From contig NZ_WIQU01000031.1 in the NCBI RefSeq assembly GCF_015732285.1, positions 1 through 43,147 of the forward strand: DNA of 43,147 bases, read 5' to 3'. Below, piece by piece: positions 10,599-41,511 of this stretch. A program made the position numbers and the translations under genes. Under the pieces are notes generated by a model that searched no databases, was not told where the DNA came from, and worked only from the letters and a program-made list of their open reading frames with translations. The DNA is from Pectinatus frisingensis. Its GTDB lineage: Bacteria > Bacillota > Negativicutes > Selenomonadales > Selenomonadaceae. Position 1 is the first letter of the stretch. The number at the start of each line of letters is the position of its first letter.

Positions 10599-10606
10599 AA
10601 AAATAT

Positions 10607-10629: not shown

Positions 10630-10651
10630 GCGAAGGAGAGGAGAAATTCAA

Positions 10652-11437
10652 ATGGCGGCTGTTCGAAACCACTTTACGATGGGAATTGTAGGAGCTTTTT
10701 TGCTGGTAGCGCCCATGGCCGCGCAAGCATCCATCCCGGTCATTGACAGTGAAAATATTCTGCAGCAGATCAAAACCTATACCGAAACGCTTCAGGTTGT
10801 GACGAATACGGCGCAGCAAATTACGTTGCAGATGAAGGAACTCACGGCACTGCCGGAAACCGTTCTGGATAGTTATAAAGATGCCTTGAATAACAGTATG
10901 TCTTCTATCAATACGGCCATGAAAAAATCCGGGTTCTTTACAGAGGACACAGCATGGAATAGCTATTGGCAAAGTACCTTTCCTAAAATCGCCGTAGATA
11001 CCTATGCGCAAACTTCTTTGGCCGAGCAAAATGTGAACACGACGCTGCAGGAAATCTTATCTATGCGAAATCGGGATGATGTAACGACATACCATCAGCT
11101 CATGACGGAGCTTGATGCTTCCAGAACACGACTAACGGATCTGTTGGAGCAAAACAAATCGCCCGAAGGCAGCAAACAGGCACAGCAGCTTGCCAATGAG
11201 ATTGCGGCGGAAAAGGCGCATATCGACAGCGTTCATACAGCACTTCAAGCCTTAACTGCGCAGAATCAGGTGATGAAGAATCAGGCGGAGGTGCTGGAAA
11301 AGCAGAATCATCAGGCGGTTGTTAATGCTGCGATACAGGCCGAAGATGCAGCACTTACGAAAATGCAGCAGGAAGTAACGAAAACCGTGCCTGCCCTTGA
11401 TGATCCCTGGCAAACCTATGGCCATGTGAGGTGGTGA
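10652..11437 (+). CDS. trbJ: TrbJ/VirB5-like T4SS protein, copy 1
   Basis: Secreted minor pilus-tip or channel protein. The ATG at 10652 is preceded by AAGGAGAGGAG; the longer frame from 10568 would overlap virB4 and cross the hairpin. The 261 residues start with a signal peptide (about 1-25, ending AAQAS) and continue as an almost entirely alpha-helical, Gln/Asn/Ala-rich protein with predicted coiled coils (about 30-60 and 150-240), the TrbJ pattern. A second TrbJ-like gene lies at 14907, so the two may be alternative or successive tip subunits. Confidence 0.8.
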   Translation: MAAVRNHFTMGIVGAFLLVAPMAAQASIPVIDSENILQQIKTYTETLQVVTNTAQQITLQMKELTALPETVLDSYKDALNNSMSSINTAMKKSGFFTEDTAWNSYWQSTFPKIAVDTYAQTSLAEQNVNTTLQEILSMRNRDDVTTYHQLMTELDASRTRLTDLLEQNKSPEGSKQAQQLANEIAAEKAHIDSVHTALQALTAQNQVMKNQAEVLEKQNHQAVVNAAIQAEDAALTKMQQEVTKTVPALDDPWQTYGHVRW

Positions 11438-11441
11438 GCGC

Positions 11442-12575
11442 GTGGATTTTGCAAGCAGTGATTTTTTGACGGAATTACTGAAATTTTTCGAGCTGCACAG
11501 CATTACGGGCTTTTTAGCCTTGCAGCCCTATGCGTGGCAGCTCGTTTCTGTTTTGGCGGTTATTGATGTTTGTACAACTTGGACACTGTATAGCGCGGAG
11601 CTGCGGATGGCCGCCGTGATCAGCCGGGTGATGAAGGTCGGATTTTTCCTTTTTCTCATTTTGCAGTGGGATAAAATCAATTCGGCTATTTTAGTTTCAT
11701 TCCAATATGCCGGACTAACAGCTGCCGGGGTAACACCATCTAGTGATTGGATTGCACCGAGCAAGATATTGGAACAAGGATTTGAAGTTGTCGGCGGTCT
11801 TTTGAAAGCATTTAATGAAACCGGCATAATGAGCAATGGGGGCCTCGGAAAATGTTTTATGTACCTACTGTCTACAGTCATTACCTTAGGCGCTTTTTTC
11901 TTTATTACCTTACAGATTCTTTTGACGAAGATTGAATTCAATGTGTTTGCTTCGATTGGTGTCATTTTGCTGCCGTTTGGGGCCATTCGCTATACGTCCT
12001 TTTTATTTCAGCGCGTCGTAGCTGCTGTTTTCAGTTTTGGCATCAAATTGATGGTCATGTATTTCCTGATTGGCCTATTTAATTCGTTGGCAGGGGATGT
12101 AAAAGCCATTCCGGCAACCGAATCGTTCGCAAACATGCTTCGCATGTCCTTATCCTATGCAGCCATGGCCTTTCTTACATGGCAGCTGCCGAATCTGGCG
12201 GCAAGCATGATGAATGGGCAGCCTGCCATGGATGCCGGAGCTGCGATTGGCGGGGCAAGAATGGCAGGCACAGCTGTCGTTGCTGCTGTGAGCGGTGGCG
12301 TAGGCGGTGCGGTAACAAAGGCAGCTTCCACCTACGGCAATGCAAGAGTGACAATGAATGCGGCCCGCGCCAGTCAAGCTGTGAGCGGGGGTTCGCTTTC
12401 CGGCAATTTTGCCAAAACCATGATGCGGCAAAAATTTGCCAATAGCACCATTGGCAGATCCTTGATGCGTGGGGCCAACAATGCCATTAATCATCATGAG
12501 GATTATAAAAACCTGCGGTCGGGCAGAGCATTTGAAGAAGCACAGAGAAACCGCAATGACTATGGCAACAAGTAA
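11442..12575 (+). CDS. trbL: TrbL/VirB6-like polytopic channel protein
   Basis: Inner-membrane channel subunit. The GTG start at 11442 follows GAGGTGGTGAG, four bases after the trbJ stop. The 377 residues contain about six hydrophobic segments in the first 260 residues, then a Gly/Ala-rich soluble tail (about 260-377), as in TrbL/VirB6. The neighbouring gene carries a second VirB6-like membrane region between two cell-wall hydrolase domains, so this operon encodes two VirB6-type proteins. Confidence 0.85.
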   Translation: MDFASSDFLTELLKFFELHSITGFLALQPYAWQLVSVLAVIDVCTTWTLYSAELRMAAVISRVMKVGFFLFLILQWDKINSAILVSFQYAGLTAAGVTPSSDWIAPSKILEQGFEVVGGLLKAFNETGIMSNGGLGKCFMYLLSTVITLGAFFFITLQILLTKIEFNVFASIGVILLPFGAIRYTSFLFQRVVAAVFSFGIKLMVMYFLIGLFNSLAGDVKAIPATESFANMLRMSLSYAAMAFLTWQLPNLAASMMNGQPAMDAGAAIGGARMAGTAVVAAVSGGVGGAVTKAASTYGNARVTMNAARASQAVSGGSLSGNFAKTMMRQKFANSTIGRSLMRGANNAINHHEDYKNLRSGRAFEEAQRNRNDYGNK

Positions 12576-12584
12576 GGTGTGCCT

Positions 12585-14393
12585 ATGAGAATAAAACAAA
12601 TTTGTGTGGCGATAGGCATTTTTCTATTAGTAAGCATGCCGGCTGTCTTTGCCGCAGCACCGTTTGCCGGAGGCGAAGTGACGGCGCCATTTGGTGAAGA
12701 AGACCATCTGGGGCATACGCATAAAGGATTGGATGTCGGTACTTCGTCCGGCACGCCGATTCTTGCTCCATTCAATGGCACCGTCGAGCATGGCGCAGGC
12801 AATGGTTTTATTTATTGGGTGCTTATTACGGGAGACAATGGGGAAGCACTTCTTTTCGGCGACTGCAATCCGGATACCTTGATTTGTCCGGATGGCACGG
12901 TAGCGGAAGGTACATTGATTGGCTATACCGGCGGCGATGTCTATGAAGGCGAGCTTGGCACCTCGACCGGGGCGCATTGTCATCTGGAATATTGGCCTTC
13001 TGGTTATTACACGGGCTCGGTCATAGATCCATCTTCCCGATTGGTAGCGCTGGGGGTTAACCTTAGCGGGAATGGCAGTGTAAATCCGGGAAGTGGACAA
13101 AAAGGAAGTGACAATATTTCACTGCCGTGGGGCGTGGCAGCGATGTATCAGCTGGGAGATTCCCTAAATCAGCTGATGGAACAAATGGTGACGACTTTAT
13201 CAAAAGGCTATAGCGGCCTGCAGACGGCAGGACTTGCCTTGTTATTTGTCCTGGCAATCCTTGATCTGACGCTGCCGATTATTGTCGCCGGTCTGGAGAC
13301 TTCCTTGAATCAGGTCATTACGAAAACCTTTAAATACGGTTTCTTGTTTTTGATTTTTACCAATTGGCAGCGAATCATCAACGATTTTTTTCTGAGTTTT
13401 GTAAGTTCGGTATCGGGCACCTTTATTCAAGATCCAACGATAATTGCCGATAACGTGTCACAGCCGCAGCTTTTGATGCAAAAATGCGTGTATCTGGTTA
13501 CGCCGGGACTCAATAAAATTGCGTCGTTCGGTTCGATGGATTTTGTCCGGAATTTCGGAACGATCCTGCCGATTTATCTCATTACCTTTTTGACCATGGG
13601 CATATTTTTCTTTCTGTCCTGTTACATCATGCTCGTCTATATCGAATTTTATTTTTCGGCTTCGGTGGCACTTTGTACCGGACCGTTTGCCGCCTTGGGG
13701 TTTACGAAATTTGTGGCTGAAGGGAGTTTCGGCCATCTGGTATCTACAACTATAAAGCTCATGATTTTGTCCGTGATGGTCGGGCTGTGCGTTTTCTGCA
13801 TCAAGGATGCCAAGCCGCAGGACCTTTTTACCATGAAAACACCGGCAGTAACCCAGACGGGATCAGGCAGTGTTTCCGGACCGGCAGACTTGGTAGCTTT
13901 GGCGACAGAAAAGGCGCAAAAATATAACATTCCCGTTACGCTTTTCTTGGCACAGATTCAGGCGGAGAGCAGTTGGAACTCGCAGGCGGTCAGTGCGGTT
14001 GGCGCGGAAGGCTTAGGTCAGCTTATGCCGTCTACTGCTGCTGGGCTGGGCTGCTATGATTCCTTTAATCCGGAGCAGAATTTGGAAGTCTCGGCAAAGT
14101 ATATGCGGGGGCTGTATGAACAGTTTGGTGATTGGAACTATGCTTTGGCCGCTTATAACGGTGGACCTAATAGTATTTCCAGGAATGAGCCGCTGCCAGG
14201 ATGGGCACAGGCTTATGTAAATCAGGTCAATCGGAATTTGTCAGGAACCTATACCGTAAATAATGGAATTACTGCAGAAGCCATGTCAAAATATGTGCTG
14301 TTCTGCTTATCCTTAATTGGCTTAGCGATATTAACCTTCCGTGTGCCAAAGTCCATTATGAATGCCTTGGGAGGTCGTTATGAATTGTCTTAA
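12585..14393 (+). CDS. M23 peptidase - VirB6-like membrane region - lytic transglycosylase fusion
   Basis: A 602-residue protein joining three activities. After a signal-like segment (about 1-24) comes an M23 endopeptidase domain with both zinc motifs, HKGLD (about 46-50) and HCHLEYW (about 132-138). The middle (about 190-430) has several hydrophobic helices like TrbL/VirB6. Residues about 435-545 form an SLT transglycosylase domain with the catalytic glutamate in QAESSWN, then GLGQLMPST and ALAAYNGG. A last membrane helix lies near 570-590. VirB1-type hydrolases normally open peptidoglycan as separate proteins; here two hydrolases of different bond specificity appear tethered to a channel subunit. 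The ATG at 12585 follows AAGGTG. Confidence 0.88.
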   Translation: MRIKQICVAIGIFLLVSMPAVFAAAPFAGGEVTAPFGEEDHLGHTHKGLDVGTSSGTPILAPFNGTVEHGAGNGFIYWVLITGDNGEALLFGDCNPDTLICPDGTVAEGTLIGYTGGDVYEGELGTSTGAHCHLEYWPSGYYTGSVIDPSSRLVALGVNLSGNGSVNPGSGQKGSDNISLPWGVAAMYQLGDSLNQLMEQMVTTLSKGYSGLQTAGLALLFVLAILDLTLPIIVAGLETSLNQVITKTFKYGFLFLIFTNWQRIINDFFLSFVSSVSGTFIQDPTIIADNVSQPQLLMQKCVYLVTPGLNKIASFGSMDFVRNFGTILPIYLITFLTMGIFFFLSCYIMLVYIEFYFSASVALCTGPFAALGFTKFVAEGSFGHLVSTTIKLMILSVMVGLCVFCIKDAKPQDLFTMKTPAVTQTGSGSVSGPADLVALATEKAQKYNIPVTLFLAQIQAESSWNSQAVSAVGAEGLGQLMPSTAAGLGCYDSFNPEQNLEVSAKYMRGLYEQFGDWNYALAAYNGGPNSISRNEPLPGWAQAYVNQVNRNLSGTYTVNNGITAEAMSKYVLFCLSLIGLAILTFRVPKSIMNALGGRYELS

Positions 14394-16276: not shown

Positions 16277-16864
16277 TTATTTTTCTTTGGTAAAGGATGA
16301 GACAAAGAGCTCCAAACATTGACGGCAAAGCTTGAGCTTATCATGGGAAAGTGAATTCAATAGCTTATTGATGCGTGTCCGTTCCCAATCGGCAGCCGTA
16401 TCCTCTAAAACCTGTTTTGGCGAAATTGGCTGGTTGTTTTCGCCATAGAGCAGCCATTCCAAGGAAAATCCCATTTTGCCAAGCTTTTGGATGACTTCGG
16501 CAGAGGGAATGGTGCCATGTTCAATGGAGGAGAGGGCCGATTGACTGATGGCTAAGTCTTTGGCGAATTCTTCCTGTGATTTGTCGTAATACACACGGAT
16601 GACTTTGATGCGCTGGGCTAAGGTATCTGCTTCTTTATCCACGGAAGCGTCCTTAGCTGGGGTTTTTCCCGAAAGAAAATCGGTTGTGACATCAAACATT
16701 TCTGCGATTTTTTTGAGAATCTCTGGTGCCGGCTCATCCTTACCGGTTTCATATAAAGAAATTTGTACTTGGGTCGTATTTAAAAGATCAGCCAGTTCGC
16801 CCTGCGTCATCTTGCCTTTTCTTAATTCTTTTAAACGTTTTGCAAATTCACTCAACCAAATCAC
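16277..16864 (-). CDS. XRE-family regulator with two HTH domains
   Basis: A 195-residue DNA-binding protein with two HTH_3 domains in tandem: residues about 8-62 (MTQGELADLLNTTQVQISLY) and about 82-135 (KSQEEFAKDLAISQSALSSIE). A C-terminal helical tail may mediate dimerisation or inducer response. GTG start at 16864; an in-frame TTG at 16855 with GGGTGA upstream is an equally good start. It is divergent from topB across an AT-rich gap with two direct repeats and is placed to act as the element's repressor, possibly controlling topB and itself. Confidence 0.85.
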   Translation of the reverse strand: MIWLSEFAKRLKELRKGKMTQGELADLLNTTQVQISLYETGKDEPAPEILKKIAEMFDVTTDFLSGKTPAKDASVDKEADTLAQRIKVIRVYYDKSQEEFAKDLAISQSALSSIEHGTIPSAEVIQKLGKMGFSLEWLLYGENNQPISPKQVLEDTAADWERTRINKLLNSLSHDKLKLCRQCLELFVSSFTKEK

Positions 16865-16875
16865 CCACTTATATA

Positions 16876-16914
16876 TTTACCGCAAAACAAATATTATATT
16901 TTATATTTTACCAC
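16876..16914. promoter_or_regulatory. Candidate operator repeats between XRE gene and topB
   Basis: TTTACCGC (16876-16883) and TTTACCAC (16907-16914) are direct repeats 31 bp apart, about three helical turns, in the AT-rich space between the divergent XRE gene and topB. This is a plausible site for a regulator with two HTH domains; the assignment is inference. Confidence 0.4.
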
Positions 16915-16941
16915 GATAAAAATAAAAAGGAAGTGTTTCTT

Positions 16942-19083
16942 TTGAGAAAAATCACGTATATCGCAGAGAAACCGGATATTGGCAAGGCTTTGGCGGCCTA
17001 TTTATGGCCGAATGGAAATTGTCATAAAGAAAAAGTTTTTATCCAAAGTGGAGATACGACTGTGACCTGGGCGTTTGGACATATTCTAAGGCTTGCTTCA
17101 CCGGAGGAATATGGCGAGGAATATAAGGTTTGGGCGAATTACCCGGTTCTTCCTAAAGTATGGAAAGTGAAACCGGCTGCAGCTGCTGTGGCACAGTTAG
17201 CCGTGATAAAAAAGCTCTTAATGGAAACGGATGTTGTTGTTCATGTGGGGGACCCAGATCGTGAGGGACAATTGCTGATTGATGAGATTCTGCGATATTT
17301 GCATTTTGATGGAAAGGTACAGCGTCTTCTTATCAATGCAAAAGATGATGAAAGTTTGAAACGAGCCTTTTCACAGATTACAGACAATAAAAAATATGCG
17401 AACTTATATTATGCAGGTCTGGGCCGGGAGCAGGCAGATTGGTTAGTTGGGATGAATCTTACACGCGCCTATACCGTGAATGCACGAAAATATGGTTATG
17501 AGAGCACGTTTCGTATAGGGCGAGTAAAGGTGCCCACATTGGCGCTTGTCGTTAACCGGGAAAAAGAGATCAAGGGCTTTAAGCCAGCAAAATATTATGA
17601 ACTGAAGGGGATTTTCGAAAAAGAGGGCATTCCGTTTAAAGCAACTTTGAAACCAACGGAAAAATTGCCACTGGATGAAGAAAACCGTATTAAGGATAAA
17701 AACATCCTGCAGGCTGTTAAGCTGAAGGTCGAACAAGCAGAGGTTATTGTCAAGGACATACAGGAAAAGGATATGGTGCAGCAGCCACCTTTGCCGTATT
17801 CTTTGGATACTTTGCAGGTGGAAGCAAATAAAAAATATGGCTTTTCACCAAAAGAAGTATTGGCTACGGTGCAGGATTTGTACGAAAAGAAATATGTGTC
17901 ATATCCGCGCAGTGATTGTAACTATATTCCGGTATCGCAAAAAGAGGATGCTCCAAGAATTTTGCCTGTATTGCAGGCATTTGGAATTGCTGGTGCAGAT
18001 ACCGCTGATATGAAGCTTACGAGTAAGGCTTTTAATGATGAGAAAATAACAGCGCATCATGCCATTATTCCCACGGGAATTCAACCGGAAAAATTAACGG
18101 AAACAGAACAAAAAATTTATGCACTTATAGCACAACGGTACGTGCTGCAGTTCTTTCTTGCACATGAATATAGAAAGATCACGTTTACTTTGGTCGTTGC
18201 CGACGAAATCTTTACGGGTAGCGGGAAAGTCATTTTAAAACAAGGTTATAAGGCCTATGAAACGGAAGAGAAGGAGGCAGAATCCCTTGATTCTAATTTA
18301 AAACTTCCGGCGCTTGCTGTAGGAGAAAAGATAGAAAAGGCCACTTATTCTATCGCTGATAAGGTAACAACTCCGCCAAAGCGCTTTACCGAAGGTACGC
18401 TTTTGGCGGCAATGGCAAATATCTGGCGTTTTGTCGATGCGAAAAATCCCAATAGGGAAAAGCTGAAAGAGGTCAAAGGAATTGGTACTCCGGCAACACG
18501 GGATACGATTATTGCGGAACTGCAGGCAGATATTTTGAACGGTAAACCGATAGAGCCTTGTATGACGAAAATAAAAAAAGAACTGTTACCTACAGAATTC
18601 GGTATCAGCCTGATAGAAAATGTGGATCATTCGCTTACATTGCCGGATGCAACGGCAGAAATGGAATATGCTCTGTCGGAAATTGCGGCAGGGAAGAAAA
18701 ATTTGTCTGAATATATGGATGACATGATTACCATGGTGCATCAAAACATTCAGTTTGCTGAGAATAGGAAATTCCCATTGCCAAAGGGCAAAATATGTGA
18801 GATGTGTCCGATTTGCAGCAAAGGAGAGCTCATCCGTCGTTACTCGCCAAAGGTTAAAAAGTATTTCCATATCTGCAGTAATCCGGATTGTGTTTCACCA
18901 GTAACCGGCAGAAAACTTTTTTATGAGGATGAGCATGGAAAGCCTATTGTTGTTAAATGCCCAGAATGTGGAACAATTCTTGTTCGTATTTTGAAAAATG
19001 GGGTATTTTGGCTCTGCAGCAAATGCAATAAAACTTTTAATGACAAAGCTGGTAAACCGGATCTGTCGTTGAAAAAGGAATAA
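16942..19083 (+). CDS. topB: DNA topoisomerase III (type IA)
   Basis: Relaxes and decatenates single-strand-containing DNA; plasmid and conjugative-element copies aid transfer and replication. The TTG at 16942 follows AAGGAAGTG; a longer frame from 16726 overlaps the XRE gene and is rejected. The 713 residues contain an N-terminal TOPRIM domain with GDPDREGQ (about 104-111), the active-site tyrosine in VSYPRSD (Tyr321), TPPKRFTEGTL and GIGTPATRDTI, and two C-terminal zinc-ribbon segments (CxxC pairs near residues 625-655 and 675-700). Two broken topB copies lie downstream at 19715 and 33014. Confidence 0.95.
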   Translation: MRKITYIAEKPDIGKALAAYLWPNGNCHKEKVFIQSGDTTVTWAFGHILRLASPEEYGEEYKVWANYPVLPKVWKVKPAAAAVAQLAVIKKLLMETDVVVHVGDPDREGQLLIDEILRYLHFDGKVQRLLINAKDDESLKRAFSQITDNKKYANLYYAGLGREQADWLVGMNLTRAYTVNARKYGYESTFRIGRVKVPTLALVVNREKEIKGFKPAKYYELKGIFEKEGIPFKATLKPTEKLPLDEENRIKDKNILQAVKLKVEQAEVIVKDIQEKDMVQQPPLPYSLDTLQVEANKKYGFSPKEVLATVQDLYEKKYVSYPRSDCNYIPVSQKEDAPRILPVLQAFGIAGADTADMKLTSKAFNDEKITAHHAIIPTGIQPEKLTETEQKIYALIAQRYVLQFFLAHEYRKITFTLVVADEIFTGSGKVILKQGYKAYETEEKEAESLDSNLKLPALAVGEKIEKATYSIADKVTTPPKRFTEGTLLAAMANIWRFVDAKNPNREKLKEVKGIGTPATRDTIIAELQADILNGKPIEPCMTKIKKELLPTEFGISLIENVDHSLTLPDATAEMEYALSEIAAGKKNLSEYMDDMITMVHQNIQFAENRKFPLPKGKICEMCPICSKGELIRRYSPKVKKYFHICSNPDCVSPVTGRKLFYEDEHGKPIVVKCPECGTILVRILKNGVFWLCSKCNKTFNDKAGKPDLSLKKE

Positions 19084-19714: not shown

Positions 19715-20014
19715 AAGATTACGCCACCGGAACGATTTACCGAAGGTACACTTTTGGCGGTTATGGCACCTGAATTAGCTACTTTGGATTTTAAGACGGA
19801 TACGTCCGTCGCGGTCATAAAAGCTATGATACAGGAAATGAAACAGGATGGCCTGAGTAGGCAAAAAATGAGCAATATTATCAAGCCGAATAAGAACTTT
19901 GATTTGAATTTGCTTGGAGAAAAGTCAACAGAGAATGCTCCAAAGGCTCAAAAACGTAAACTGCAGGTGATTCAAGGCAAAGAAAACAGTCGGAGTTGTG
20001 AAATAGGTATGTGA
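19715..20014 (+). pseudogene. Scrambled remnant: topB fragment joined to 3' end of the ArdC-N-like gene
   Basis: The frame opens after a stop at 19712 and first reads ITPPERFTEGTLLAVMA, matching topoisomerase III TTPPKRFTEGTLLAAMA in the intact copy. At about 19768 it switches to the C-terminus of the 755-residue protein at 35377 (ELATLDFK, EMKQDGL, FDLNLLGEKSTEN). From 19887 the DNA is identical to 37517 onward. There is no convincing start site, so I call it a recombination scar, not a gene; translation from TTG 19754 would give 86 residues. Confidence 0.8.
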
Positions 20015-20035: not shown

Positions 20036-20039
20036 AAGG

Positions 20040-20105
20040 CGCGGTTGCATGGAGGTGCAGGGGTGGAATTCCCGTGAGTATATAAATACCATCCGCAAAG
20101 TTTTT
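20040..20105 (+). ncRNA. Candidate structured RNA, 3' half only (copy C)
   Basis: Matches the 3' half of the longer elements at 34615 and 37781. Hairpin TTGCAT-GGAG-GTGCAG (20045-20060), then GGGGTGGAATTCCCG, hairpin GTAT-ATAA-ATAC (20078-20089), ATCCGCAAAG and TTTTT. It starts right after the 149-bp repeat. The 5' half is missing, so it may be inactive. Confidence 0.5.
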
Positions 20106-21239: not shown

Positions 21240-21270
21240 TTGACTATATTCTAAGAATATAGTTTATGCT
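21240..21270 (+). promoter_or_regulatory. MerR-type promoter/operator of the RND operon
   Basis: TTGACT (21240-21245), 19-bp spacer, TATGCT (21265-21270). The palindrome ACTATATTC-TAA-GAATATAGT (21243-21263) is perfect and fills the spacer, the diagnostic architecture for activation by a MerR protein. Transcription runs toward tolC, and the divergent merR start lies 31 bp to the left of the -35 box, so the site may also autoregulate. Confidence 0.85.
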
Positions 21271-21410
21271 GGATTTTGTCAATATAATGTGAAGGTCGTA
21301 ATCCAATTGCCTTACTCAAATCAAGAATTTACTTTTTAATTTTAGTTTTTTGCTTAATTATAGACCAAGATCAGTAAGAATTAATTGAAATCTTAAAAAG
21401 GGAGAAAATC

Positions 21411-31138: not shown

Positions 31139-31169
31139 TTGACTGTATTCTAACAATATAGTTTACACT
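31139..31169 (+). promoter_or_regulatory. Second MerR-type promoter/operator, before bltD-MFS
   Basis: TTGACT (31139-31144), 19-bp spacer, TACACT (31164-31169), with the near-palindrome ACTGTATTC-TAA-CAATATAGT (31142-31162). It closely matches the site at 21240, and both are followed by TGTCAATATAA or TTGTCAATATAA. The same MerR protein is the obvious candidate activator, although its gene lies about 10 kb away. Confidence 0.82.
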
Positions 31170-31303
31170 GAATGATGTCAATATAAAGCAATGGAGTGTT
31201 ATGCAACATGATTTATAAAATAGCCCCTTGGAAGTGGAGGCGAGACGCCATGCGTCTTACGCAAGTGAACGGCTACGGGTTAAAACGAAGGAAAGAACCC
31301 AAT

Positions 31304-33013: not shown

Positions 33014-33648
33014 ATTATATATATTCCGGAAGCTCAATTCAAGGATGTAAAAGTCATTTTGGAAAATCTGGCATGGTTCGGTTGGCAGGAAGAAGTGGCA
33101 AGCGCGATGTGAACAGAAAAGCAGGGCCTGGGCCGATGAAAAGGTTTCGGTGCATCATGCGATTATCACGACAACGCTCCTGTGCGATAAGGCAAGATTT
33201 ATTAAAGAGCAGCAAGATATTTACGCCTTAATTGCCCACTCGTATCTTGCACAATTTTATCCGCCGCATTGCTTTTCTAAGACAATGCTTCGTATCGATA
33301 ACCATACTTTTCAAGGGGCCGGGAAAGTGGTCCTGGAAGAAGGTTGGAGGACATTATATAAGGCAGAACCAGATAATGAAAAGCCAGGGGAGGAAGCGTT
33401 TTACCGGGTCTGCAAAATGGGAATGAAGTAAGCTTACGGGAAATGAAGGTACAAGAGAAAATAACAAAGCCGCCGAACCGGTTCAATTTATCCAGCATTA
33501 TTGAAGCTATGAAAAATATTCACCATTTTGTTCAGAAAGAGACATTAAAGGCGCAGATGAAAGAATGTCCGGTATCGGAACAGAGGCAACGCGGGTAGGA
33601 ATTTTAGATGAACTCGTACAGGAAATTCAACAATATAGACAGTTATGA
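33014..33648 (+). pseudogene. topB: Broken topoisomerase III remnant
   Basis: Begins abruptly within the sequence that follows the catalytic tyrosine motif in topB (NYIYIPEAQFKDVKVILENL). It continues through VSVHHAII, DIYALIAHSYLAQFY, GAGKVVLEEGW, KITKPPNRF and, in another frame, GIGTEATRVGILDELV. Several frameshifts and stops and the missing TOPRIM and tyrosine regions make it inactive. It is a different allele from the intact topB at 16942. The 5' junction lies within 10 bases of the MFS stop codon. Confidence 0.88.
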
Positions 33649-33739
33649 TCACATTAGAACATGGCTATCCCAAGTTGTTAGACGATATATTTGATAAGTG
33701 AAGAATCTGCCATCTATTGGGTAATTTCATTAAAAAGAA

Positions 33740-33791
33740 AAAGACTGCTTTAGCTTTCTACAGGGTGTGGGACTAAAGTGGCCTTTTTTTT
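33740..33791 (+). terminator. Terminator-like stem before the sigma-factor unit
   Basis: AAAGACTGCTTTAG (33740-33753) pairs, with one mismatch and two G-T pairs, with CTAAAGTGGCCTTT (33773-33786), followed by a run of Ts. The same arrangement (stem containing CTAAAGT, then the conserved AT-rich block) recurs at 35004. Confidence 0.65.
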
Positions 33792-33853
33792 CAAAAAAAT
33801 TTTTCGCAGAATTTGCCAAAACCATTTTTCCAATTGTTTTAGTTATATGAAAG
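33792..33853 (+). promoter_or_regulatory. Conserved upstream block, copy 1 (before sigma factor)
   Basis: About 62 bp roughly 75% identical by eye to 35071-35132, with constant parts CAAAAAAA, TTTGCCAAAA, CAATTGTTTTAG and TATATGAAAGA. No perfect sigma-A promoter is visible, so it may be a promoter for the element's own sigma factor or a binding site. Confidence 0.45.
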
Positions 33854-33949
33854 GAAACTGCGGAGAGTGTCTCTGTGGACACCATAAAGTAATAAATAGA
33901 ATGAAATCTGCGTTCGCATGAACCTCTCTTTGCTGCGAGGGGAGGTGAT

Positions 33950-34354
33950 ATGTTGGAATGCCAGGAGCGTTTTGATAGCTTTTGTAAAAAAGTCTTACGA
34001 AACCATGCCCGCAACTATGACCGGATGTTACGCCGTCGCAGAAAACAAGAGTGCTTTTCGGAAGATGTTTGCAGAGACAAAAGATTTCAACGCTTTTTTT
34101 CTGTAGCAGCTTTTCAAGATTCTTATGTATTTCATGTATTGGGTATAGATGTGAGTGTAGAAGACGGATTTCTCGGTGCAGCTTTGCAAGAATTATCCGA
34201 GGAACGCAGGACAATTGTTTTACTGTCCTACTTTTTGGATATGACGGACAGCGAGATTGGTGAATGCTTGCATATTATCCGGCGAACCGTATCGTATCGC
34301 AGAGACAGCACACTAAAGCAGTTAAAAAAATATTTGGAGGATCGGTGCAGATGA
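33950..34354 (+). CDS. Small sigma-70-like factor (Tn916 Orf7-like)
   Basis: 134 residues. The C-terminal half (about 70-130) is a sigma region-4-like HTH (LQELSEERRTIVLLSYFLDMTDSEIG, then RRTVSYRRDSTLKQLKK). The short, cysteine-containing N-terminal half lacks clear regions 2-3. The ATG at 33950 has a very strong GAGGGGAGGTGAT. It overlaps the HTH_16 gene by 4 bases. The pair sigma-like/HTH_16 matches Tn916-type elements, where it takes part in control of transfer genes. It could direct polymerase to the repeated blocks at 33792 and 35071 (inference). Confidence 0.82.
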   Translation: MLECQERFDSFCKKVLRNHARNYDRMLRRRRKQECFSEDVCRDKRFQRFFSVAAFQDSYVFHVLGIDVSVEDGFLGAALQELSEERRTIVLLSYFLDMTDSEIGECLHIIRRTVSYRRDSTLKQLKKYLEDRCR

Positions 34355-34614
34355 GAAAAAAAGCAAACGGTAAGAAAGCGAGATCAAAAAGAAAGTACTC
34401 CTTGCTGCCGCTTACTGTTATTTTAGCAGCTGTGCAGGGAGAAGAATCTGCAATAAAACAGGTATTAAAGTATTATGAGTGCTATATTACAAGGCTGGCA
34501 TCCAAAGAATTATATGATCGGTATGGAAATTCTTATATTTGCGTGGACTATCAGTTAAAAACAGAACTACAGAATAAGCTGATTGCGGGAATTTTAAGAT
34601 TTCATGCTGTGTAA
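34351..34614 (+). CDS. HTH_16 domain protein (Tn916 Orf8-like)
   Basis: 87 residues: basic N-terminus, then the HTH_16 pattern (LLPLTVILAAVQGEESAIKQVLKYYECYI, DRYGNSYICVDYQLKTELQNKLIAGIL). Start ATG 34351 overlaps the sigma gene stop, with GGAGG 9 bases upstream. In Tn916-like elements this small protein accompanies the sigma-like factor. The last 37 codons recur almost unchanged at 37667-37780. The candidate structured RNA starts directly at the stop codon in both places. Confidence 0.85.
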   Translation: MRKKANGKKARSKRKYSLLPLTVILAAVQGEESAIKQVLKYYECYITRLASKELYDRYGNSYICVDYQLKTELQNKLIAGILRFHAV

Positions 34615-34800
34615 TGAATGATGGAACTTTGAAAAAGAAAGTGCAAAAGCACAGTATAGCGTTTTGCGGATACAAGATCATGAAACTCCCGTATAGCTAT
34701 CGTCCGAGCAGAAAAAAACTGTCGCAGACAAAGGTACGGCTGCATGACCGTGCAGGGGTGAAATTCCAGTGGGCCAAAATGCCGTTCGCAACGCTTTTTT
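34615..34800 (+). ncRNA. Candidate structured RNA downstream of HTH_16 gene (copy A)
   Basis: About 185 nt closely similar to 37781-37966. Hairpins: GTGC-AAAA-GCAC (34641-34652); CGAGCAG...CTGTCG with one bulged G (34705-34724); CTGCAT-GACC-GTGCAG (34740-34755), followed by GGGGTGAAATTCC; GGC...GCC (34772-34783); ending CGCAACGCTTTTTT. Against copy B, paired positions are kept or replaced by compatible pairs, while loops differ in length by one base. A 72-residue frame (34614-34832) overlaps it but is frameshifted in copy B, which argues against coding. Confidence 0.6.
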
Positions 34801-35003
34801 ATTGTAAAATAGACGATAGCATCGCTTATTAAACGAATATTTGCGACATCAAAAAAGACGAAGTTATTATTTGATTTATGGGGAACACCGCTGTATATAG
34901 CATGTTATCCACTAGAAAATTAAAGTTTGAACTTATGAAAGGATGCAATTGTGGATACTGAGGGCGTATGAGAAATGTTTTCAAAGACATAAAATTTAAT
35001 AAT

Positions 35004-35060
35004 AGAAAGGACTACTTTAGTTTTTTACATGATCTAATAGAAACTAAAGTAGTCCTTTCT
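35004..35060. terminator. Perfect 20-bp inverted repeat terminator
   Basis: AGAAAGGACTACTTTAGTTT (35004-35023) and its exact complement (35041-35060) with a 17-nt loop. It has T-rich flanks on both sides and separates the sigma/HTH_16/RNA unit from the next operon. The stretch 34801-35003 shows no gene I can support. Confidence 0.85.
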
Positions 35061-35070
35061 CATTTAAAAT

Positions 35071-35132
35071 CAAAAAAAATTTCGTCGGTTTTGCCAAAAA
35101 GACAAATTCAATTGTTTTAGGTATATGAAAGA
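35071..35132 (+). promoter_or_regulatory. Conserved upstream block, copy 2 (before ArdC-N-like operon)
   Basis: Counterpart of 33792-33853, again directly behind a terminator stem: CAAAAAAAATTTCG, TTTTGCCAAAA, CAATTGTTTTAG, TATATGAAAGA. Likely a shared promoter or operator of two units of the same element. Confidence 0.45.
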
Positions 35133-35225
35133 CAAAAAAAGAAAGAGTCTGTGCGATGGAATTTTTTACAGACGAAATCTTAAAAATAAGCAAGCTGGTA
35201 TGTGAGGCGGAGAGGAGTAAGTACT

Positions 35226-35387
35226 ATGGAATTAATGAAGAGAACAGAGTATTTGCAGGAAGATTATATTGGTCGTAAAATAGCAGCAAATTTGGCGATT
35301 GATTATGATGAGAACCAGCTGTTAGTAGAAGAATTTTTAGATAGGACGCATGGCGATAGAAAGGAGTGTGAGATTGATGTCAAATGA
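35226..35387 (+). CDS. Small hypothetical protein before the ArdC-N-like gene
   Basis: 53 residues (MELMKRTEYLQEDYIGRK...), acidic and soluble, no family recognised. ATG 35226 has AGAGGAG upstream, and its stop overlaps the start of the next gene by 11 bases, so the two are probably co-translated. It could be a small antirestriction or regulatory partner, but nothing in the sequence says so. Confidence 0.5.
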   Translation: MELMKRTEYLQEDYIGRKIAANLAIDYDENQLLVEEFLDRTHGDRKECEIDVK

Positions 35388-37644
35388 AGAGGTTTTTGAA
35401 AGTCGTAATAGGGTCAATAAAATAATTGTGGATAATTTGACGGATTATGGTAACATCGAGCCGCCAGCACTTTATGGACGGGCCTATAATGATGGTACAC
35501 GAACGAAATATCAGTTTAGTGCGGCCAATTATTTACGTATAGCGGCAGCACAAAGAGAAAATAACTGGCAGGATCTTCGCTGGCTGAGTGAACAAGAAAT
35601 TGAGAATAAAAATTTCACCTTGAAATCGGCTGCAAAACCAGTAGCAATCGAATACTGGCAAGGGATTGATGATGGTCAAAATTATGAGGGTAATCTTCGG
35701 AAATTCTATAATGCAGCAGATCTTGTGGAACTGGATGGGACGGAAAAAGTTGTTCTTGGCAATGAAGAGACGGATAGGGAATATGCATTGGATCTTTTGC
35801 GGGTGAATGGATTCGATGTCGATGAAAAAATGAATTCCTATGATAAGATTTTTTCAGCCGTCCAGGATTATGCGAAAAGTAAAGGCGCGGATGAATTTGC
35901 CGCGCCGATGACTTCCCAGATATTTTTCAAGACAAGTCATCTTGGTTACGACTATTCTGTGTATCCGCTTTATACGGAGGCGCAGATCCGTGAGATTGCA
36001 GAGAATCCGAAAATCATATTTCATGCCACGAAAAAAGCACAGGAATTAGTCAGTGGTATGCAGCAGGAACAAAATAAGGAACTGAAAAAACTAGCGGATA
36101 AACTTAAGGCAGAGCAAAATCAACCGTTTAACGATTTATCCGTAGATTTTTTATGGAGCGAACGTCGCCTGAAAGATTTGCAGGGCAAAGAATATCAAGA
36201 AGGGCAGCATCTTCAGGGTGAAGCTGCTTATCAATTTTTGGTACAACTCAATGCAGCGGATAAGGAACAGTTTAATAGCAAGTTGCAGGGAATCGGCAAC
36301 TACGATAAAACAAAAATTGCCGTTCGGTACGGGAATTATGACCACGGTGAGATGCGGATAGATCTTGGCGATTTAGAACTGCGCAATCAAAGCACAATAG
36401 CGGATGCCATGGTGATGCGCTTCAATGAATATCGCAATTACTTAATGACGGATGAGCAGGCGATGAATGCTCATATCGGTTTGCAAAAATCTGATAGCCA
36501 GGAAGTTACCAAAGAACAGGTTATTGCAGAATGCGAACAGGAAAATGCGCAGTGTGAACTGGTAATGATGCAATTTGCCAAAGAAGAAAACATATATTTG
36601 GCAAAGCATCCGGAGTTAAAGAAAATCAATGAACAGAAGGCGGATGTATTTTTGTATTACTGTACAGAGCAAGATTTTTGCAAAGTGCCAAAAAATATGG
36701 TATTGGCGGTTCATAGGGCTATTGAATATGATGGGCTTGTTTTTGATCAACGCGATTCTAGTCAAACCTTATTTTCTGCAGAAAGAAAATTTAATAAACC
36801 AAAGCCAAATGATATTGTTTTTGAATCCGCAATAGCGAATGATGAAATCAAAGGGAACCTTCCTGTTAAAGCAGCCTTTTCTAGAGAAGATCAAGTCGCT
36901 ATGGGGAATTTAGAGAAATTCTCTATTAAAATAGAGAACTACGGTACTGTTATGGAACCTTTTGAAATTCCTGCAACTCAAGTGTATAAAGGAAAACAAG
37001 CTGTGCAGCGGTTTATCTATGAAAAAAATTATGAAGTGAGTGCGATGCGTAGCATGAATTATGAACAAAAAATAATACGCCACCCACAACAACAGATGAC
37101 ATTTTCTTATGATGGCAAAGAATTTTGTAAGTTAAAGTATGAAATTGGCAGTGGGATTCTCAATCAAAGTATTCCGTCGGGACTGCCTTTATATAATGAA
37201 GGGGAAAATGCAATAAATAAAGAATTGCAGCAGGCCGTTTATACGCAAATGAAATATCAAGGGATTTATAGGGATAATGGTATCCATGATCTAAATCGAA
37301 AAAATGAAATCAAACTTCCAGACCTTGAAGTTGTACGAGCTAAGGCAATGGAAAATAAGCCGGATGCAAGGGCTAATAGTAAGCAATTTGCGTATTATGC
37401 TGAACTGGCTACTTTGGATTTTAAGAAGGACACACCAGATAAGGTCATGGAAGCCATGGTACAAGAAATGAAGCAGGATGGTTTGAGCGATAAGAAAATC
37501 GCCAATATCGTTAAGACGAATAAGAACTTTGATTTGAATTTGCTTGGAGAAAAGTCAACAGAGAATGCTCCAAAGGCTCAAAAACGTAAACTGCAGGTGA
37601 TTCAAGGCAAAGAAAACAGTCGGAGTTGTGAAATAGGTATGTGA
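35377..37644 (+). CDS. Large polyvalent protein with ArdC-N-like domain
   Basis: 755 residues. The N-terminal region (about 30-95) resembles the ssDNA-binding domain of ArdC antirestriction proteins (PPALYGRAYNDG, RWLSEQEIENKNFTLK, AKPVAIEYWQ). No HExxH metalloprotease motif follows, so the protease half of true ArdC appears absent. The middle (about 210-385) is Lys/Gln-rich and helical with IRVDLGDLEL-like sequence of large polyvalent-protein-associated domains (here MRIDLGDLELRNQST). The C-terminus has a basic tail. A role in protecting or processing entering single-stranded DNA is inferred. The ATG at 35377 follows AAAGGAG. Its 3' end lies in the 149-bp direct repeat. Confidence 0.7.
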   Translation: MSNEEVFESRNRVNKIIVDNLTDYGNIEPPALYGRAYNDGTRTKYQFSAANYLRIAAAQRENNWQDLRWLSEQEIENKNFTLKSAAKPVAIEYWQGIDDGQNYEGNLRKFYNAADLVELDGTEKVVLGNEETDREYALDLLRVNGFDVDEKMNSYDKIFSAVQDYAKSKGADEFAAPMTSQIFFKTSHLGYDYSVYPLYTEAQIREIAENPKIIFHATKKAQELVSGMQQEQNKELKKLADKLKAEQNQPFNDLSVDFLWSERRLKDLQGKEYQEGQHLQGEAAYQFLVQLNAADKEQFNSKLQGIGNYDKTKIAVRYGNYDHGEMRIDLGDLELRNQSTIADAMVMRFNEYRNYLMTDEQAMNAHIGLQKSDSQEVTKEQVIAECEQENAQCELVMMQFAKEENIYLAKHPELKKINEQKADVFLYYCTEQDFCKVPKNMVLAVHRAIEYDGLVFDQRDSSQTLFSAERKFNKPKPNDIVFESAIANDEIKGNLPVKAAFSREDQVAMGNLEKFSIKIENYGTVMEPFEIPATQVYKGKQAVQRFIYEKNYEVSAMRSMNYEQKIIRHPQQQMTFSYDGKEFCKLKYEIGSGILNQSIPSGLPLYNEGENAINKELQQAVYTQMKYQGIYRDNGIHDLNRKNEIKLPDLEVVRAKAMENKPDARANSKQFAYYAELATLDFKKDTPDKVMEAMVQEMKQDGLSDKKIANIVKTNKNFDLNLLGEKSTENAPKAQKRKLQVIQGKENSRSCEIGM

Positions 37645-37665
37645 GTAGGAGTGGGGGGAATTTAT
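37517..37665 (+). repeat. 149-bp perfect direct repeat, right copy
   Basis: Identical by eye to 19887-20035 (offset 17,630). Here it is in its native place, the end of the intact ArdC-N-like gene, so this is probably the source copy. Recombination between the two would delete the whole cargo plus the sigma unit. Confidence 0.92.
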
Positions 37666-37666
37666 C

Positions 37667-37780
37667 ATGTCGAAAGATTTAATCCGCTATGGAAATTCGT
37701 ATATTTGCGTGGACTATGAGTTGAAAGCAGAACTACAGAATAAGCTGATTGCGGGAATTTTAAAATTCCATACTGTGTAA
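37667..37780 (+). pseudogene. Truncated HTH_16 protein fragment
   Basis: 37 codons from ATG 37667 to TAA 37780. After MSKDLI it repeats the C-terminus of the HTH_16 protein at 34351 (RYGNSYICVDYELKAELQNK) with a few substitutions. The helix-turn-helix part is missing. A strong GGGGGGAA site happens to precede it, so it may be translated, but as a DNA-binding protein it is broken. Confidence 0.75.
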
Positions 37781-37966
37781 TGAATGATGGATCTTTGAAA
37801 AAGAAAGTGCAAAAGCGCAGTATAGACTTTTCGGATACAAGATAATGAAACTCCCGTATAGCTCTAGTCCGAGCAGAGAGAAACTGTCGCAGGCGAAGGT
37901 ACGGCTGCACAAAAGGTGCAGGGGTGAAATTCCCGTGGGTATATAGATACCGTCCGCAAAGTTTTT
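37781..37966 (+). ncRNA. Candidate structured RNA (copy B)
   Basis: Second full copy of the element at 34615. Hairpins: GTGC-AAAA-GCGC (37807-37818); CGAGCAG...CTGTCG (37870-37889); CTGCAC-AAAAG-GTGCAG (37905-37921), then GGGGTGAAATTCCC; GGTAT-ATAG-ATACC (37938-37951); CCGTCCGCAAAG and TTTTT (to 37966). It forms the leader of the 46-residue gene at 37997, so the 3' stem plus T-run could act as an attenuator. The last hairpin uses different base pairs from copy A. Confidence 0.6.
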
Positions 37967-37996
37967 CCTTTATTCCAGTGAGGAGGGGAGGGTTTT

Positions 37997-38137
37997 ATGG
38001 ATAATAAGGCATTAAGAATAAAAGTCATAACAAATACTCCGTCTGAACAAGCACTACGGAGTTTTCGAACAAAATTATTTGAAATGCAGAGTAAGAAAAA
38101 TACACGTTCTGGGGGGAGTGGCCTTAAGAAAACATGA
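37997..38137 (+). CDS. Small basic protein upstream of recombinase (46 residues)
   Basis: ATG 37997 with a very strong GAGGAGGGGAGGG site. 46 residues, net positive, ending in a Ser/Gly/Lys-rich tail; no family recognised. It follows the candidate RNA and converges on the RHH gene (3 bases between stops). Small basic proteins next to large serine recombinases sometimes act as directionality factors; this is a guess from position. Confidence 0.5.
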   Translation: MDNKALRIKVITNTPSEQALRSFRTKLFEMQSKKNTRSGGSGLKKT

Positions 38138-38140
38138 GCG

Positions 38141-38326
38141 TTAATCTTTACTCATTTTGGTATCAGGTTGCATTTTTTGTTTTTTAATGACTTCCAGGCC
38201 TAAACGAATTAGTTCGGTAGTTGCTTCCGAGCGTGTTGGATAGCGTCCTTCAAAACGAAAATCTTCTATTTCCTTAAACATATCTTTATCTACGGAAACC
38301 ATGAATCGTGGTCTTGTTGTTGCCAT
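38141..38326 (-). CDS. Ribbon-helix-helix (CopG/Arc-type) repressor
   Basis: 61 residues: beta-strand RPRFMVSVD (about 5-13), then helices around MFKEIEDF and TRSEATTELIRLGLEVI, the RHH fold. The ATG at 38326 follows GAGGTGAT; the upstream ATG at 38335 is less likely. It is divergent from the serine recombinase, and the gap holds four copies of a TGATACA-type heptad around a good promoter, so it probably represses the recombinase and itself. Confidence 0.85.
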   Translation of the reverse strand: MATTRPRFMVSVDKDMFKEIEDFRFEGRYPTRSEATTELIRLGLEVIKKQKMQPDTKMSKD

Positions 38327-38362
38327 TACTATCACCTCAACTTATCAATATTATAACAAGGT

Positions 38363-38447
38363 TGATACACTGATGTAAAGAAACACTATTGACAGGTGTA
38401 TCACTGATGCTCTATACTAAAATTAGATGTACAGATACACTGATACA
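38363..38447 (+). promoter_or_regulatory. Recombinase promoter with RHH operator heptads
   Basis: Promoter TTGACA (38389-38394), 18-bp spacer, TATACT (38413-38418). Heptads TGATACA at 38363-38369 and 38441-38447, AGATACA at 38433-38439, and inverted TGTATCA at 38397-38403, which sits inside the spacer. Such heptad arrays are typical targets of RHH repressors. Confidence 0.75.
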
Positions 38448-38478
38448 CCAATGCGCAGCGATAGGTGGTGAAAATCCG

Positions 38479-39996
38479 ATGAACTTAGAAAACAGAAAAT
38501 ATGATATTCGCTATGTTGCAAACTATCTTAGAAAGTCTCGTGCTGAAAGCATGGAAGACCTGGAAAAACATCGGATGGTACTCACCGAATTATGTATCAA
38601 AAACAGCTTTAAGTTCGTTGAATATATGGAAGTTGGGACATCCGATAGTATTGATATGCGCCCAAAAATTACACAGCTTTTAAAAGAGGTTGAAGACGGG
38701 GTATATGACGCTGTTTGTGTTGTTGAATACGATAGGCTGGGACGCGGCGACCTCGGAGAACAAGACCGGCTTAAAAAGGCATTTCAAAAGTCGGAAACGC
38801 TTATTATTACACCGGATAAGATTTATGATCTTAATAACGATATAGATGATACATATGCCGACCTAAAAGGCTTTTTTGCTAGGCAAGAATACAAGATGAT
38901 TACTAAGCGTTTACGGCAGGGGAAGATCATAGGTGCTAGGCGTGGACAATGGACAAATGGTATCCCTGCATTCCCTTATGTATATCAGCGGTATCGTGAT
39001 AAGTATAATGAAAAAGGTATTGTTGTTAATGATGAAAGATTGCCAATATATCGTGAAATGATCGAAAAAGCATTATCGGGAATTCCATCACAGAAAATAG
39101 CTGAAAGCCTGAATCAAAGAGGAATTTTTACTCCAAAGGGTAATTATTGGAGTGCTGTTGCTGTACAGAGGTTGTTGCTTGATGAGACACATCTAGGGCG
39201 GATTATTAGCAACAAGACAAAAGGTAGTGGACATAAAAATAAACGCCCTAATGCTAAAAATTATGAAGCGATACCTAAAAGCGAATGGACTATTGTGGAA
39301 AATTGCCATGAAGCAGTGAAAACTAAAGAAGAGCATGATCGTATTGTTGCCATCCTAAGCAGTAGAAAAAAGGTTCCCACAAAAAGCCGGAAGCAATCTC
39401 ATGTATTAACGGGACTAGTCAAGTGCGCTAAATGTGGACATACTCATACGATCCATTTAGTTGACGGTAAAGCATTTGTCAGAGCATGTTGGTACATAGA
39501 CCCTTTAGGCAATAAATGCCGTAATAAAGGCATTTTGTCCGATACTTTGGAAGAAATTATTTTGAAAGAAATATCAAAGTATCAGAGCAAAATTATAAAT
39601 AACAATGAACCTGTAGACAGCCAACAATCCGATAATATTAAAACAGAAATCAGTGAGCTTGAAAACCTGCTTCAAAAGTATAAAAAAGCATTGGAAACAG
39701 TAAATGATGCTTATGAACTTGGAGATTATAACCGTGAGGAATGGCAAACAAGAAAAAGAAAATGGCAAAAGCTCATAGGTCAAACCGAAGATGAAATATA
39801 CGACATGAGAAAAATTTACCAGTCTAATCAAAACATAAGCGACGAGGAACGTAAACAAAACCTTATAAATTTTCTTGCTAATATCAGAACAATGACTGAT
39901 AATGTACAGCGTAACGATTTGTATAGAACAGTAATTGAAAGCATTGTTTACTTGCGTGAGGGAAATACTATCGACGTAAAAATTAATTTCAAGTAA
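38479..39996 (+). CDS. Large serine recombinase (integrase of the element)
   Basis: 505 residues. Resolvase catalytic domain with the nucleophile serine in YLRKSRAE (Ser20) and [15 protein letters not shown]; Recombinase domain (about 190-290: [22 protein letters not shown]); zinc ribbon (CAKCGHTHT ... [11 protein letters not shown], about 320-355); C-terminal coiled coil (about 390-460). It catalyses site-specific integration and excision through a 2-bp crossover. The ATG at 38479 follows GGTGGTG; the frame from 38389 would start inside the promoter. Regulated by the adjacent RHH protein. Directly followed by a truncated yyaL. Confidence 0.94.
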
Positions 39997-40626: not shown

Positions 40627-41511
40627 ATGAGAAATAGTAGAATGAGAATATGCATAGTTTTCGTGATAGTAAATTTTTTTATGATTTCTTGGCAGGCATC
40701 GATACAGGCAGCGCAATTCGAAAAAGGGATGGCATTTGAAATGTTTGCTTCACTAGAAAAGCAACATCAAGCGAAGATTGGCGTGTATGCACTGGATACA
40801 GAAAGTAATAAAGAAATTTTTTATCATGCAGATGATCGATTTGCATATTGTTCTACAAATAAAATTTTGATAGCAGGTGCTCTTTTGCGGCAGGAGACCT
40901 TGAATGGACTTAAAAAGACAGTGTCGTATAACAAAAAAGATATTTTATCTTATGCGCCTATAACAGCGAAGCATGTTGAGACAGGAATGTCTTTAGAAGA
41001 ACTTTGCTCGGCTGCACTGCGGGTTAGCGATAATACAGCAGCGAATTTGTTATTGGCACATATTGGTGGGCCGAATGCATTAAAAGAATCATTACGTCAA
41101 ATAGGGGATACGGTGACAGAACCATACAGAATAGAACCCATGTTGAATGAGGCAGTCCCGGAAGATTTGCGTGATACCAGTACACCACGTCAGTTGGCAA
41201 TTGATTATCAAACCTATCTATTGGGAGATATATTACCAGTGGAGAAGAAAGGGCTTCTTCTTAACTGGATGTCCGGCAATAAAGTTACAGATACATTGAT
41301 TCGAGCAGGCCTGCCAAAAGAATGGAGCGTTGCAGATAAGAGTGGCAGTGGTGGTTATGGAACAAGAAATGATGTTGCAATTATTACGCCGCCAGGACGT
41401 AAACCCATCATTCTTGCAATACTTACCACACATTATAGGGAGAATGCCAAAATAGAGGATTCTCTGGTTGCCGAAACTGCGAAGATTGTATATGAGCAGT
41501 TAGAACAGTAA
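40627..41511 (+). CDS. bla: Class A beta-lactamase
   Basis: 294-residue periplasmic serine hydrolase opening the beta-lactam ring. Signal peptide (about 1-30, ending IQAA). Catalytic motifs: STNK (Ser76 and Lys79, equivalent to Ambler 70 and 73), SDN, EPMLNEAVP (Glu equivalent to 166) and KSG (equivalent to 234-236). A cysteine directly before the nucleophile is present but its usual partner at position 238 is glycine, so no disulfide. The ATG at 40627 follows GGGAG. Not linked to a bla regulator here. Spectrum cannot be inferred. Confidence 0.94.
   Translation: MRNSRMRICIVFVIVNFFMISWQASIQAAQFEKGMAFEMFASLEKQHQAKIGVYALDTESNKEIFYHADDRFAYCSTNKILIAGALLRQETLNGLKKTVSYNKKDILSYAPITAKHVETGMSLEELCSAALRVSDNTAANLLLAHIGGPNALKESLRQIGDTVTEPYRIEPMLNEAVPEDLRDTSTPRQLAIDYQTYLLGDILPVEKKGLLLNWMSGNKVTDTLIRAGLPKEWSVADKSGSGGYGTRNDVAIITPPGRKPIILAILTTHYRENAKIEDSLVAETAKIVYEQLEQ

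Follow-up and report, generated by a model that had tools for sequence, protein, structure and literature searches.

Repeated pemK-family RNAs in a putative conjugative element of Pectinatus frisingensis are probably relatives of the Tn916 antiterminator canT

The window analysed here is the whole of a 43,147 nucleotide (nt) stretch of Pectinatus frisingensis DNA (contig NZ_WIQU01000031.1, positions 1 to 43,147, forward strand), which appears to be an integrative conjugative element, judging from its genes for conjugation, a topoisomerase, cargo functions, regulators and a recombinase. Its plus strand carries two full copies, A and B, of a repeated RNA element that lies downstream of genes for a sigma-like factor and an HTH_16 regulator and upstream of a large serine recombinase gene. 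Both copies belong to the Rfam family RF02913 (pemK RNA), and the comparison presented below suggests that they are probably of the same kind as canT, the antiterminator of Tn916.

Copies A (34615-34800) and B (37781-37966) align along their full length, as the original prediction made from this DNA had stated, with 160 of 189 alignment columns identical (blastn gives 85% identity over query positions 1-184, E-value 8.4e-53). The half copy it had described is a partial third copy at 20036-20105, which is 92% identical to B across 53 nt and 80% to A across 41 nt, and the hairpin stems that it named can be read in the sequence. The features of the three copies are given below; the scores of our model R1 are those of a model trained on both window copies.

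37819-37971 (+), copy B, candidate canT/pemK-type RNA, most likely the better preserved copy; RF02913 match at 37842-37938; R1 98 bits (in the training set)
34658-34803 (+), copy A, candidate canT/pemK-type RNA; RF02913 match at 34677-34772; R1 87.5 bits (in the training set)
20036-20105 (+), remnant with only P3, P4, P5 and the 3' strand of P1; repeat families D5 and D7; R1 11.8 bits, E-value 0.12
37824-37836 with 37952-37964 (+), P1, the closing stem of B, 12 base pairs (bp), interrupted; minimum-energy fold
34658-34671 with 34784-34795 (+), P1, the closing stem of A, 12 bp, interrupted; minimum-energy fold
37842-37852 (+), ATAATGAAACT box of B, whose aligned ATA corresponds to the letters changed in Tn916 canT(S3); alignment and methods of PMC11658703
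37854-37904 (+), P2 of B, with an apical insertion, 37854-37859 pairing with 37899-37904; covariation and fold
37905-37921 (+), P3 of B, the third hairpin of the original prediction; covariation and fold
37922-37934 (+), P4 of B, with loop GTGAAAT; covariation and fold
37938-37951 (+), P5 of B, the fourth hairpin of the original prediction; covariation and fold

When folded separately, A and B are predicted to share one layout, in which a 5' hairpin is followed by a 12-bp interrupted closing stem and then by P2, P3, P4 and P5. The RNA had been proposed to start at the HTH_16 stop codon in both copies; the modelled RNA begins about 40 nt after the stop in each, and the HTH_16 sequence in front of B is only a remnant of 37 amino acids. 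Copy B has kept the ATA of the box and an intact P4. The partial copy at 20036-20105 is without the box and without the 5' strands of P1 and P2, and should be inert. That the window copies too are decayed duplicates without function would account for this clear truncation of the third copy, for the HTH_16 remnant in front of B, and for the altered box letter and lost P4 pair of A, but it is in our judgement quite unlikely, since A and B both score above the Rfam cut-off, both retain 12 of the 12 columns that are invariant in a 46-row alignment, and both are predicted to form a 12-bp P1 despite its different sequence in the two copies.

The matches to RF02913 (Rfam 15, type Cis-reg) span the whole model (1-61 of 61) and reach 54.6 bits for B and 40.9 bits for A, against a gathering cut-off of 34.8; they are the only matches above cut-off in the host genome. 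The remnant does not reach the RF02913 cut-off and has no Rfam match to the family, and a search of window positions 33500-39000 against Rfam to an E-value of 1 returned, besides pemK, only two chance-level matches. An undescribed RNA family is thereby ruled out: the original prediction knew of no described family with this layout and had itself named presence in Rfam as grounds for abandoning that view, and the family is already there. The three consecutive hairpins that RF02913 places inside a closing pair are P2, P3 and P4 of the copies, as seen in the cmscan alignments, with A short of one P4 pair. The model has no P1, P5 or 5' domain, and the window copies differ from it in having 38 nt inserted into the first hairpin and in changes that alter stems.

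The pemK RNA was reportedly first described by Weinberg in 2017, and no test of its function was found in the searchable literature, which does not include that description. In the parts of later papers available to us, pemK is listed in the Rfam 15 paper with three additional covarying pairs (PMC11701678), is placed by the CaCoFold paper among families whose database structure misses supported pairs (PMC7657543), is cited in the RAGATH-18 RNA paper as an example of an RNA near defence-associated genes (PMC11061315), and otherwise serves merely as test data (PMC11507696, PMC7682815).

The link to a function comes from Tn916, in which canT was shown in 2024 to be a cis-acting processive antiterminator (PMC11658703). 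A 452-bp canT fragment reads through T1, T2, T3, the gatB terminator and a set of rrnB and lambda terminators; it acts in cis, in one orientation, and requires no other Tn916 genes (PMC11658703). canT is needed for conjugation and not for excision: the canT(S3) mutation, a 3-nt change of ATA to TGC from nt 283, and the Delta162 mutation, a deletion of nt 229-390, each bring conjugation down roughly 100-fold but leave excision no lower, and with either one the 452-bp reporter loses its read-through; canT mutations also cut expression of the genes beyond T1 (PMC11658703).

Among our own loci, one core sequence is common to 7 of 42, and 541 nt from the region of locus L006 agree without mismatch (100% identity) with 10 plasmid records, of which two list the Tn916 excisionase. 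Counted from the orf8 stop codon, the RF02913 match of L006 occupies nt 283-383 and has ATA at 283-285. It can be seen that the canT(S3) site is the first three nt of the pemK match and that Delta162 takes out the whole match; the agreement of the S3 and pemK coordinates is exact and involved no fitting. The RNA at the mutated site of canT is thus an RF02913 RNA, and the window copies are of the same RNA family. At the S3 site B has ATA and A has ATC, which we count as the site being present in both. A word search of the canT report, as available, gave 0 mentions each of pemK and Rfam, and within that text its authors took sequence and structural analyses of canT no further (PMC11658703). No paper joining pemK with canT was found in a literature search that left most subscription papers outside it. 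We consider it probable that the window copies, the pemK family and Tn916 canT are one and the same RNA, and that A and B are cis-acting processive antiterminators of this conjugative element.

The Tn916 results also bear on the possibility that the window element releases a small RNA that acts in trans and ends at the T-run. The length of the window copies and their T-run would permit this, but canT supplied elsewhere failed to restore conjugation of a canT mutant (PMC11658703), and a trans-acting RNA seems to us extremely unlikely.

For comparison of the structure across relatives, a pattern scan, in which the pattern fixes ATAATGAWACTYC and GGTGRAATTCC, gave at least 117 stretches; conservation of those letters in the scan loci is by construction. 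The organisms named in the 80 titles listed for these stretches are all Bacillota as far as we recognised them. In all, 149 unique instances were available, 143 of them with enough flanking sequence, from which 107 representatives were taken (81 pattern-derived and 26 RF02913-derived). The original claim that the RNA is non-coding was borne out, and protein coding is excluded: core lengths modulo 3 were 0, 1 and 2 in 34, 24 and 49 of the 107 representatives, and each of the forward frames is open in 14 of them at most.

Covariation was measured in two alignments with hand-chosen rows, A1 with 46 sequences and A4 with 49 of 67 less similar representatives; the tests use swaps and shuffles, which do not remove relatedness. 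For the 28 pairs examined in A1 (the closing pair, P2 with its inner parts, P3, P4 and P5), 89.5% of cells are paired compared with 66.5% after shuffling, there are 325 double-change cells compared with 103.6 (standard deviation 11.9), and the covariation score is 0.586 compared with 0.216 in shuffles and 0.089-0.144 in slid versions. Two-sided changes are seen in 25 of the 28 pairs, the other three involving letters which, in most rows, are set by the search pattern, so that they lend no support; a weaker measure, the number of further pair types, was matched in 16 of 500 shuffles.

A further contact was found between the loop of a hairpin in a 5' GAGCGA domain and the loop of P5. The longest Watson-Crick run between these loops averages 3.91 within a molecule compared with 2.84 when partners are swapped (z-score 11.7, 0 of 2000 swaps as high), in a set of 98 of the 107 representatives that excludes six of window type and three whose loops are short and is less selected than A4; two control loop combinations gave no signal (z-scores 0.2 and -1.1). 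In A4, which leaves out 18 rows (four of window type and 14 whose 5' part is different by eye) and therefore favours the contact, the four loop-loop pairs show 88.2% of cells paired versus 73.9%, 32 double-change cells versus 9.3 and a covariation score of 0.484 versus 0.231, with slid versions at or below 0.182; the weaker measures are undistinctive, double-change pairs being matched in 45 of 500 shuffles and further pair types in 114 of 500. These results support helices P2 to P5, together with a loop-loop contact that lies outside the Rfam model. The six representatives of the window subtype are the two window copies and four RNAs from other genomes of the class, and in rows of this type the loop-loop runs are just 2-3 pairs, with the GAGCGA-domain contact absent. 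Outside this subtype P1 is weakly supported (energy z-score -3.6, but a run as long in 37 of 2000 swaps). Many members (L006, L049, L056 and others) carry GAGCG twice, once within the 5' domain and once within the insertion of P2.

The T-run with which each copy was originally said to end does follow P1 in both full copies and is present at the end of the remnant. A riboswitch or a protein-sensing attenuator, in which the P1-closed structure and the T-run would form a conditional terminator, could be read from this arrangement, but the T-run terminator does not hold as a family feature: T-rich tails occur in 25 of 107 representatives against a background of 19%, and TTTT in 18 of 107 against 9%. 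A terminator scan, restricted to loops of 3-8 nt and hence blind to a terminator formed by the closing stem, found no plus-strand site at A or B. As the Tn916 homologue also gives read-through by itself, we assign very little probability to such a conditional terminator. The broader proposal of a regulatory RNA belonging to this group of elements survives in that the RNA is structured, non-coding and strongly covarying; attenuation at the T-run is disfavoured by the near-background tails and the absence of a plus-strand site, and action in trans by the failure of canT to complement.

The genes that flank the copies, and those that suggest a conjugative element, are the following.

33950-34354 (+), sigma-70 region 4 protein, orf7-like (PF04545, PF08281)
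34264-34614 (+), HTH_16 protein, orf8-like, complete, before copy A (PF12645, E-value 7.6e-20)
35350-37644, open reading frame (ORF) of 764 amino acids between copies A and B, with no Pfam or NCBIfam match
37667-37780 (+), C-terminal HTH_16 remnant of 37 amino acids before copy B (PF12645 positions 37-65 of 65, E-value 3.9e-6)
37997-38137 (+), small ORF of 46 amino acids, whose start lies 58 nt past the RF02913 match of B, with no Pfam or NCBIfam match
38389-39996 (+), large serine recombinase (PF00239, PF07508, PF13408)
2464-3777, TrbI/VirB10-like protein
3770-6085, coupling protein
8124-10598, TrbE/VirB4-like protein
12579-14393, TrbL with a transglycosylase domain
16726-19083, topoisomerase III

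Copy A follows the complete HTH_16 gene and is followed by the 764-amino-acid ORF and then by B, and B lies between the HTH_16 remnant and the small ORF and recombinase, so that it sits on the same strand between a helix-turn-helix (HTH) regulator and a recombination gene. In this the window RNA resembles canT, which likewise follows sigma-like and HTH genes and precedes the recombination genes; unlike canT, the window copies have no GAGCGA domain and no loop-loop contact, are two in number and are followed by a serine recombinase.

The same placement recurs among the representatives. At least 1 kb of upstream sequence was available for 90 of the 107, and in 81 of these a total of 122 same-strand ORFs of at least 60 amino acids end within 900 nt; Sigma70_r4_2 is matched by 59 and HTH_16 by 30, and no recombinase catalytic domain is found among the 25 of 37 families listed. 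Downstream, 95 of the 107 have at least 1.4 kb, and in 88 a same-strand ORF of at least 130 amino acids starts within 2.5 kb, this being a Resolvase in 50, a Phage_integrase in 18 and PemK in two. In the Enterococcus faecium record NZ_KP345886 the order is sigma factor, HTH gene, RF02913 RNA (68.9 bits) and tndX. This TndX module, of the type of Tn5397, which TndX presumably marks, has the same succession of sigma factor, HTH gene, RNA and serine recombinase as the window, although its recombinase is only 24.7% identical to that of the window. From these contexts the RNA stays with the regulator genes while the type of recombinase varies. A second Rfam cis-regulatory RNA, RF03532 (SQ2397), lies upstream of the sigma-like gene at L006:52-281 (Tn916) and at L170:2016-2245 (the tndX element), with 229.8 bits each. 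Phage_antitermQ (PF06530) is matched by 7 of the 122 upstream proteins (best E-value 1.7e-4), possibly only through the helix-turn-helix of sigma-like proteins.

The type Cis-reg and the name pemK would suggest a leader that controls only the next gene, through translation or attenuation, and the original prediction saw B as the leader of the small gene at 37997. B does lie 58 nt before that gene, a ribosome-binding site with an ORF of at least 40 amino acids follows the RNA, at a median distance of 133.5 nt, in 74 of 107 representatives, and PemK is the gene at L080 and L147. However, the genes that come first downstream are diverse, PemK being the first ORF of at least 130 amino acids in just 2 of 88 loci, and the canT mutations spared excision, which needs the next genes, while they cut expression beyond T1 (PMC11658703). 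A pemK-toxin leader is rejected as a general role, and in the window no pemK gene follows the RNA, B preceding the small ORF and the serine recombinase. What remains of the earlier view is that the RNA precedes the small gene and the recombinase; control of a single gene by a leader appears improbable, and a processive antiterminator explains more.

RF02913 is found in 13 of 300 genomes sampled from the window's class and in 21 of 299 from its phylum, the window's own genome being counted in each, and R1 has matches in this genome only among the 189 of the family, as expected of a mobile element. When the own-genome search, run to an E-value of 1, was applied to 14 control genomes, three gave matches below cut-off; the class and phylum searches gave none in 14. 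A plasmid search with copy A returned no match.

Processive antiterminators for long transcription units are represented by pLS20 conAn, EAR, put and lambda nut (PMC11658703), a role that the window RNA would share. In nt 1-50000 of the 65774 of pLS20, where the place of conAn was left unchecked, RF02913 found nothing and R1 nothing below an E-value of 0.13.

If A and B act as processive antiterminators, transcription from a regulatory promoter ahead of the sigma-like gene would cross copy A, the 764-amino-acid ORF and copy B. The RNA would fold into the closing stem P1 and helices P2 to P5, presenting the conserved ATAATGA and GGTGAAATTCC segments, and one or both folded RNAs, with B presumably the main copy, may act in cis on the transcribing polymerase so that later terminators are ignored. 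Contact with the polymerase, as the authors of PMC11658703 propose for canT, could underlie this. The polymerase would then pass the recombinase gene and, were the element to excise as a circle with the transfer genes downstream, would cross the junction into them.

Several observations weigh against this interpretation. In Tn916, S3 made little difference within a 400-bp fragment, and no activity was seen with a 291-nt fragment that reportedly holds the altered sequences (PMC11658703); the functional limits thus appear to extend past the Rfam core or to be more complex than it, which fits, without proving, an RNA conserved past that core. The window subtype is without the 5' GAGCGA domain and the loop-loop contact seen in most members, and copy A has ATC in the box and has lost one P4 pair. 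The first three letters of the box in 33 RF02913-derived loci are ATA in 17, ACA in nine, ATC in three, ATT in two and TTA in two, and the ATC of A is a variant type that occurs naturally. The folding energies of the copies are ordinary (z-scores -0.98 and +0.12), and for this reason the case is built on comparison with relatives and not on stability. As many as 18 of the 88 downstream ORFs fall outside Resolvase, Phage_integrase and PemK, and neither the ends of the element nor a left-end terminator was located, no dedicated search for the ends having been made.

Other features of the window were recorded alongside. The 3' end of the 764-amino-acid ORF is duplicated at 19754-20014 (88% over 266 nt), just before the truncated RNA copy, which makes this part of the window a duplication mosaic surrounding the cargo genes. 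A topoisomerase fragment (33150-33431, PF01131 positions 215-293 of 411) precedes the sigma-like gene, the full topoisomerase being at 16726-19083. Between copy A and the 764-amino-acid ORF, positions 35005-35060 are predicted to form a long near-perfect hairpin (22 pairs, -30 kcal/mol for a stretch of 90 nt), with no clear T-run after it. A complete class A beta-lactamase gene lies just past the recombinase (40627-41511; NF033103, 302 bits, cut-off 200), and a 48-nt direct repeat of promoter-like appearance, starting TTGACT, occurs near the cargo genes at 21240-21287 and 31139-31186 (85% identical). The transfer genes (2464-14393) are of the VirB10/TrbI-VirB4 type and the regulator-RNA-recombinase end resembles Bacillota conjugative elements; the element is possibly a hybrid of the two.

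The sequence family was already known, and it is the link between pemK and canT that is notable. It seems likely to us that the orphan pemK class and canT form one processive antitermination RNA family, held together in its canonical form by a kissing contact of a 5' with a 3' hairpin and closed in the window subtype by a long P1 stem instead, and that this RNA belongs as a standard component to the regulation-recombination module in many mobile elements of Bacillota, whatever the recombinase. A specific function is thereby offered for an orphan RNA class recurring across the class and phylum of the window. If true, canT would pass from a device of a single element to an antitermination RNA family for which natural variants are aligned, the structure is extended and a subtype is recognised. 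Coupling of transfer-gene expression to excision through antitermination is also suggested for many conjugative elements beyond those like Tn916.

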